Program-made: the position numbers and the translations under genes
NCBI GenBank assembly: GCA_035691305.1
Contig: DASSJF010000013.1
Span: 1-64,000, forward strand
Length of the DNA stretch: 64,000 bases
Direction of reading: 5' to 3'
DNA from: a bacterium
GTDB lineage: Bacteria; Sysuimicrobiota; Sysuimicrobiia; Sysuimicrobiales; Segetimicrobiaceae
Shown here: positions 23,195 to 25,067 of the stretch, piece by piece
Layout: each line of letters opens with the position of its first letter
How positions within the stretch are numbered: position 1 is the first letter of the stretch
Notes under the pieces: generated by a model
What the model saw: only the letters and a program-made list of their open reading frames with translations
The model's database searches: none
What the model was told of the DNA's origin: nothing

Positions 23195-23533
23195 TCAGAC
23201 CCCCCGGAGATCGATGTGGCGCGCTTCTACGCGCAGCAACGCAAGCGAGTCGGTGGCCCGCAGACCCTCCTCGGTGCGCAGCGGCTCATCGGACGCCCGG
23301 CCGGCGGGCTCGACGACCTCCTGCTGCGCGGCAAGGATCCGGAACAGCCGCGCCGCCTCCCATGACGTGATCGCGCCCTGCTCGTAGGCGGACCACAGGT
23401 CCGCCACCGCGTCCGCTCCCGCCGGATGCGCGCTGCGCATCGCGTACCAAACGATCGCGGCCGAGCCCGCGAACATACCGCCCGCCACGAGCAGTCCCAG
23501 TTCCCAACCGGGGCCAAATAATTGTGGCCACAT
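23195..23533 (-). CDS. Small membrane protein of unknown function
   Basis: A 112-residue protein with one membrane segment (about 12-32) and a soluble tail; WSAYEQGAITSWEAARLFRI in the tail resembles a short SHOCT-like helix pair. The gene starts directly after the end of the convergent GMC gene and has an upstream GGGAGG. Unrecognised function. Confidence 0.6.
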   Translation of the reverse strand: MWPQLFGPGWELGLLVAGGMFAGSAAIVWYAMRSAHPAGADAVADLWSAYEQGAITSWEAARLFRILAAQQEVVEPAGRASDEPLRTEEGLRATDSLALLRVEARHIDLRGV

Positions 23534-24647: not shown

Positions 24648-24663
24648 TGTGGCGCGGTTCACA
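24648..24663. promoter_or_regulatory. Candidate Crp/Fnr operator
   Basis: TGTGG-CGCGGT-TCACA matches the general TGTGA-N6-TCACA Crp consensus at 9 of 10 positions with correct spacing. It is centred about 64 bases upstream of the predicted start of the repeat-peptide transcript (-10 TAGGAT at 24708-24713), near the usual activator position, and 90 bases upstream of the crp-like start. Confidence 0.6.
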
Positions 24664-24763
24664 GCGCCGGCGTGAACGAGTTCATCGCAGCGCGCCTCTT
24701 CCGCGGGTAGGATGGCCACGTCAGATCAAAACGCACCGCCCAAACCGGGAGGAGGACACGCTA

Positions 24764-25006
24764 ATGAAGATGCTTCGGAAGGCGCTCGGATTGTTCGTCG
24801 GGGGAAGCCTGCTCATCGCGGGAGCCGGGTTGTTCGTCGAGCACGATGGCCGGCTCGCCAGCGCGCCCGTCGTCGAGAAGGACAGCCGGCTTGCCAGCGC
24901 GCCCGTCGTCGAGAAGGACAGCCGGTTTGCCAGCGCGCCGATCGTCGAGAAGGACAGCCGGTTTGCCAACGCGCCGATCGTCGAGAAGGACAGCCGGCTC
25001 GGCTGA
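24764..25006 (+). CDS. Small secreted protein with four 12-residue repeats
   Basis: An 80-residue protein of no known family. Residues 1-25 look like a signal peptide or membrane anchor (KMLRKALGLFVGGSLLIAGA). Residues 30-77 are four tandem copies of R-L/F-A-S/N-A-P-V/I-V-E-K-D-S, followed by RLG and stop. The ATG at 24764 has GGGAGGAGG upstream. It diverges from a Crp/Fnr regulator and carries a likely Crp site in its promoter. The repeats could be a multi-copy peptide precursor or a wall-associated stalk; both are inference. Confidence 0.75.
   Translation: MKMLRKALGLFVGGSLLIAGAGLFVEHDGRLASAPVVEKDSRLASAPVVEKDSRFASAPIVEKDSRFANAPIVEKDSRLG
24851..24994 (+). repeat. Four 36-bp tandem repeats coding 12 residues each
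   Basis: Units at 24851-24886, 24887-24922, 24923-24958 and 24959-24994. The first two units encode identical peptides and differ by a base (CTC/CTT); the last two change Leu to Phe and the first Val to Ile, and the fourth Ser to Asn. The gradient suggests recent duplication at one end. Confidence 0.95.
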
Positions 25007-25021
25007 GCTACCCTGAGGCGC

Positions 25022-25067
25022 GGCGGTCCTCCCGCAGAGACATACCCCCAGCCCCGGGAGGGCCGCC
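25022..25067. terminator. Hairpin after the repeat-peptide gene
   Basis: GGCGGTCCTCCCG (25022-25034) pairs with CGGGAGGGCCGCC (25055-25067), 15 bases after the stop of the repeat-peptide gene and before the convergent oxidoreductase gene. Only a short pyrimidine run follows. A two-way terminator is plausible. Confidence 0.5.

Follow-up and report, generated by a model that had tools for sequence, protein, structure and literature searches.

A short repeat peptide with a signal-like leader behind a candidate paired Crp operator in Segetimicrobiaceae

Introduction

Small secreted proteins are poorly annotated, and a regulatory mark able to find them without sequence similarity would be useful. 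The window analysed here, a stretch of 64,000 nucleotides, contains next to a divergent crp-like gene a short open reading frame in which a signal-like start is followed by near-identical 12-residue units. This raises the questions of whether the frame is a gene, of what controls it and of what the repeats are for. The original prediction saw in it a peptide under Crp control that could be a multi-copy precursor comparable to yeast alpha-factor, or a stalk. Below, G000 denotes the genome to which the window belongs, and G001 and G002 are its congeners.

Reading frame and repeat array

The features of the locus are collected in Table 1. The open reading frame is as claimed, and its product consists of MKMLRKALGLFVGGSLLIAGAGL, FVEHDGRLASAP, three full [VI]VEKDSR[LF]A[SN]AP units and a final IVEKDSRLG. 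Taken in an earlier phase, the same residues give the four near-identical 12-residue units originally described, R-[LF]-A-[SN]-A-P-[VI]-V-E-K-D-S (24851-24994). They follow a diverged half unit, FVEHDG, which explains the copy number of 4.6 returned by TRF (array 24834-24999, period 36 bp). Tandem near-identical units of the alpha-factor type are thus present, with a TRF score of 248, to be compared with a top score of 98 among 20 dinucleotide-preserving shuffles of the window. A 121-aa ORF listed from 24641 corresponds to the same frame with an upstream TTG start.

Table 1. Features of the repeat peptide locus (window coordinates) and positions of the repeat paralogues (locus coordinates).
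Feature	Position	Strand	Description
crp-like gene, 226 aa	23878..24558	-	divergent from repeat peptide; PF00027 and PF13545 above cut-off
Crp box 1	24648..24663	+	TGTGGCGCGGTTCACA; 9 of 10 consensus positions; centre -64.5 from predicted TSS
Crp box 2 (degenerate)	24671..24686	+	7 of 10 consensus positions; exactly 23 bp downstream of box 1; centre -41.5
-10 element TAGGAT	24708..24713	+	offset 60 from box 1 start; predicted TSS ~24720
Shine-Dalgarno	24747..24755	+	GGGAGGAGG, read directly; upstream of the ATG
Repeat peptide gene	24764..25006	+	ATG 24764; stop 25004-25006; product 80 aa
Signal-like leader	24764..24832	+	MKMLRKALGLFVGGSLLIAGAGL; helix 3-25 in AlphaFold2 model
Repeat region	24833..25003	+	12-residue units; 36-bp period; 4.6 copies
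Terminator-like 13-bp hairpin	25022..25067	+	MFE -36.5 kcal/mol, z -2.7; followed by CGCTTTCTT
VEHD repeat paralogue, G000	L168:1501-1677 (G000:C82:177567)		10-residue units; beside ECF sigma gene
VEHD repeat paralogue, G002	L167:1501-1710 (G002:C48:36762)		10-residue units

The array could also be a chance or regulatory tandem repeat of the DNA, in which an open frame is incidental. Several other frames of the array are open too, and synonymous changes are not in excess within or between arrays, as would suit such a repeat. However, the promoter, the Shine-Dalgarno motif, the ATG, the leader homology and the terminator-like hairpin align in one frame, and a paralogue elsewhere in the genome combines a similar leader with VEHD units repeated every 30 bp instead of 36 bp. 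The GC content by codon position is also gene-like (0.68/0.45/0.90, next to 0.75/0.47/0.88 for crp and 0.71/0.48/0.86 for the Fe-S gene), a sign of coding that is weak on its own because the array repeats one unit. An incidental frame appears most unlikely.

Codon comparisons gave no clear sign of purifying selection that could be taken as proof of coding. When G000 is compared with G002, 14 of the codon changes in leader codons 1-22 are non-synonymous and 3 synonymous; in the VEHD paralogue pair, read from LPVEHD onward, all 19 are non-synonymous. These counts point to rapid change of the peptides and give no support for selection on their precise sequence.

A paired operator with fixed geometry

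The Crp box of the original prediction was recovered with the match and distance claimed for it, the start of transcription being placed seven bases after the TAGGAT element and both box centres being measured from that predicted point. Apart from TGTGGCGCGGTTCACA, the window has no site with fewer than two mismatches, and TGTGR-N6-TCACA matches three places in the 3.58-Mb genome, this one among them. A second box became visible on alignment of four peptide promoters. In an offset scan of eight promoters (the four peptide, two cyclase and two lipase-like ones), the summed consensus match for a second box peaks at offset 23 with 55 of 80 positions. With shuffled downstream sequence, the maximum was 26.2 (sd 2.0) and none of 5000 shuffles reached 55. 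Offset 23 was the best one in seven of the eight promoters, the exception being the lipase-like promoter of G000.

Allowing one mismatch, the paired-operator pattern occurs at 26 places in nine of 12 family genomes, one palindromic site of G004 being counted on both strands, and at none for the reversed-pattern control. One further place, with no mismatch, was found in another family (G021), giving a total of 27. The downstream spacing is just as regular: in 22 of the 27 places TAnnnT lies precisely at offset 60, as compared with 8 occurrences in total over the other 119 offsets (mean 0.07 each). Seven of the paired operators belong to the eight promoters from which the pattern was defined; among the 20 that do not, TAnnnT is found at +60 in 17.

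In E. coli CRP promoters, the class I box is located at -61.5 and the class II box at -41.5 (PMC5957442). Here, TGTGA-N6-TCACA boxes at distances of class I/II type from the predicted start, near those of E. coli, are found and are conserved in four genomes. E. coli CRP promoters share with the present ones the TGTGA-N6-TCACA consensus, a box centred at -41.5 and another placed upstream of it by roughly two helical turns (PMC5957442). They differ in that the present pair of boxes keeps a constant spacing of 23 bp wherever it recurs, with a -10 element likewise fixed in position, and in that many targets are short exported-type peptides.

A Crp-type regulator is encoded on the other side of the intergenic region. 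The divergent crp-like gene, which stands as described, has a product with the cyclic-nucleotide and HTH_Crp domains of a regulator of CRP-activated promoters (PF00027, E 4.9e-29; HTH_Crp_2, E 1.2e-15). Its orthologues are 85% (G002), 79% (G001) and 68% (G005) identical. Its full-length matches in the PDB are Crp/Fnr regulators, e.g., the mycobacterial Crp 3d0s (E 1e-38), to which, in the PDB sequence search, it is closer than to E. coli CRP. It can be proposed that this protein binds the tandem boxes at -64.5 and -41.5 and thereby switches on transcription of the peptide gene. At the level of sequence, the case for Crp control now reaches beyond the original claim, as it includes paired boxes, fixed geometry and recurrence.

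In the own genome, the paired operator is present at exactly two places, the repeat peptide gene and a site just upstream of a PF00211 cyclase gene, about 250 bp before the PF00211 domain. This second location fits cAMP as the ligand of the regulator, and cAMP would indeed be the most likely one. A feedback loop between cyclase and Crp is possible. Overall, a PF00211 adenylate/guanylate cyclase gene was seen behind a paired operator in two genomes (L219, G000:C61:95616; L209, G002:C22:198755).

With divergent genes on either side and only 90 bp to the start of crp, the boxes might instead serve autoregulation of crp. Against this, the order of the boxes and the -10 element face the peptide, and the same module lies far from crp in other genomes. 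The arrangement in G001 is particularly informative. There, about 3.7 kb with an 880-residue cyclase-TPR gene (PF00211) separate crp from the peptide operator, and no box with up to two mismatches is found in the 300 bp before crp. Because the peptide has kept the box and crp no longer has one, the box presumably serves the peptide; a role confined to crp autoregulation is very unlikely.

Genes behind the paired operator

Behind 10 of the 27 paired operators, a short ORF with a signal-like start begins 25-230 bp downstream, against none of 27 on the opposite side, as judged by a home-made filter (Shine-Dalgarno motif, 30-125 aa, hydrophobic start) that was written after the first peptides were seen and misses at least two cases, a 36-aa ORF in G003 and the truncated G005 gene. 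Among random positions in the same loci, 118 of 5400 pass this filter. Such an ORF is present behind seven of the 20 paired operators that did not contribute to the pattern definition. The remaining 17 of the 27 have no scored ORF of this kind; downstream of some of them lies a gene for a CxCG mini-protein, a regulator, a sigma factor or a cyclase. The fixed-geometry promoter may be regarded as a testable module that predicts which short ORFs of an uncultured lineage are genes.

The sister-genus genomes contain many peptides of 60-78 aa with leaders like MRNILVALALGVAVLLPA. A profile built from five of them found 7 places in G006 and 9 in G003 (E<=0.1) and matched 10 of 12 genomes overall, mostly weakly. 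Some of these peptides are located behind a paired operator; most of those fetched are not.

Two other targets recur, a CxCG mini-protein of about 67 residues and a small membrane protein akin to that at 23198-23533 of the window. The former, starting with MAW[YF][QR]C[SPA]CG, was observed behind the paired operator in four genomes (L231, L225, L216, L209). Regarding the latter, the window protein (MWPQLFGPGW..., 23195-23533, minus strand) has a relative in G004:C9 that sits behind a paired Crp operator. Two more paired operators, each some 1.2 kb away from crp (L213, G009:C104; L232, G004:C91), are followed by short ORFs whose products contain the membrane stretch GVLLWCLILA; these represent a further type of peptide in the crp neighbourhood, here in a third genus.

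Most single-box TGTGR-N6-TCACA sites have no target in common. A few stand upstream of cyclase loci (G000, G002) or of the gene for a lipase-like secreted protein (G000, G001). The lipase-like protein, which has a signal-like start and follows a strong Crp box (L192, G000:C5:86033; L205, G001:C120:31420), scores just above the PF01674 cut-off in G000 and just below it in G001.

Relatives of the peptide

Homologues were searched for in 61 genomes, of which 23 gave a match at E<=1; matches above E 0.01 were counted as noise unless synteny or the leader backed them. In G002, a syntenic homologue (E 5.9e-7) is divergent from the crp orthologue. Its product starts with METIRKAIGF, contains FVEHDLSQANAP and YVEHD and continues with AGFGSELRGEAP repeats. 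Thus, the leader and the first FVEHD...AP unit resemble those of the window peptide, whereas the later units differ: the 12-residue period is largely retained and the unit replaced. A second short peptide, MNTIRKALGLL..., is encoded after the syntenic gene. In G001, the same promoter type precedes a repeat-free peptide of 48 residues, and two similar peptides are encoded in tandem at a separate location. In G005, a Sec-like start is visible before the contig ends inside the peptide gene. Residues M1, R5, A7 and G9 are invariant in the leaders of seven aligned family members.

In both congeners, promoter and leader are therefore kept while the mature part is different; in other words, leader and control persist while the part to be exported is rewritten. 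The repeat arrays offer a clear case of fast turnover, between congeners, of a probably disordered exported chain. Repeat number and unit vary, contrary to the fixed number that the original prediction had named as a point against a peptide; the other point it had named, a lack of coding constraint, is in part borne out by the codon comparisons given above.

A paralogue, MKSFRKAF..., also carries repeats, with units such as LIVEHDRSMA (58 aa and about three units in G000, 69 aa and four units in G002). A two-unit VE[HK]D-type pattern occurs in 2 of 43 phylum genomes, both of the own genus, and in none for the control. Outside the genus, none of 408 pattern stretches in genome contigs and none of 33 in viral contigs was confirmed as the peptide, and the best match among PDB sequences had an E of 1.5. 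The window peptide stayed below the cut-off of every Pfam and NCBIfam model; the same holds for Pfam on seven relatives and on 10 peptides and for NCBIfam on eight peptides. The literature searches made found no paper on the family.

Fate of the product

The leader was scored as signal-like by a home-made hydrophobicity filter. In a single-sequence AlphaFold2 model (mean pLDDT 63.8), helix 3-25 is the sole part with a pLDDT near 80; values are 53-63 beyond residue 20, and no fold is seen past residue 25. Sec export and cleavage can be envisaged, and the model suggests that the rest of the chain is disordered.

By eye, the signal peptidase site of the G000 peptide is weaker than those of the non-repeat relatives, so the leader could remain as a membrane anchor. 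This raises the possibility of a stalk, in which the leader would stay uncleaved and the repeat chain would project flexibly from the outward-facing side of the membrane. No strong AxA site is apparent by eye in G000, and the modelled helix would be long enough for a membrane span. Nevertheless, non-repeat relatives have clear AxA-like sites (PALA-Q, PVFA-H), which favours cleavage in the family, and a stalk would have no domain to hold out. Such an anchored form is unlikely, although worth bearing in mind.

The original prediction of a multi-copy precursor, exported and then cut between repeats into copies of one signal peptide, is much harder to maintain. Fungal Kex2-processed repeat proteins such as alpha-factor do, as part of PMC7329392 describes them, have a signal-like start followed by tandem near-identical units, and the window gene adds a regulated promoter to its exported-type leader and near-identical units. 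The X-A/X-P dipeptides of LASAP also recall the STE13 motif of fungal alpha pheromones, as given in part of the same source (PMC7329392). However, this is a bacterial peptide whose units are not separated by KR, RR or KK and whose unit is not conserved within the genus. Dibasic pairs are absent from the mature parts of all six members checked, the Lys-Asp and Ser-Arg junctions proposed as ends are missing from the repeats of the syntenic G002 orthologue, and the G001 orthologue has no repeats. Pfam scans of six window genes (Crp, small membrane protein, Fe-S oxidoreductase, GMC oxidoreductase, NuoN-like and Lgt) revealed no processing protease, transporter or receptor, nor a modifying enzyme for a multi-core RiPP precursor. 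These comparisons leave the analogy with alpha-factor unsupported, and a precursor of this kind is highly improbable.

Altogether, we consider it probable, on the sequence evidence, that the gene encodes a Crp-activated, exported, disordered short protein of a lineage-restricted and fast-changing family, the repeats being a local expansion. The family would comprise short Sec-type peptides that share a promoter type and a leader while their mature parts change fast. Within the genus, duplication and homogenisation in each species would have enlarged some mature parts into arrays of 10- or 12-residue repeats. Rather than marking cut sites, the repeats would most likely add length to a chain that is polar and flexible and resides in the periplasm, at the cell surface or in the medium.

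The plain reading is that of a flexible chain outside the cytoplasm, the bold one that of a diversifying signal. For the latter, the operator module would drive, through Crp and cAMP, peptides of signalling or competition diversified by repeat expansion and paralogue turnover, with feedback from the cyclase. Each species would then make its own peptide, and the cyclase under the same operator would close the loop. We hold this to be distinctly unlikely.

Known bacterial proteins offer parallels. Asr of E. coli is also short. It is a periplasmic disordered acid-shock chaperone, and what PMC10746267 reports of it, namely an exported, disordered and strongly regulated protein, matches the putative export and control and the modelled disorder of the present peptide. 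The regulator is different, and the likeness is one of description, not of sequence. DUF680 and DUF4148 are short secreted families with many paralogues. They resemble the present family, again by description, in their conserved leader, variable mature part and several copies per genome; they differ from it in that no Pfam or NCBIfam model reached cut-off for any of the peptides scanned here.

The VEHD motif was considered as a metal site and rejected, its histidine being replaced by lysine in four of the five window units and missing from most G002 units. Finally, a conserved TGTAAC-type stretch lies upstream of both VEHD paralogue starts, so this paralogue may be under ECF control.
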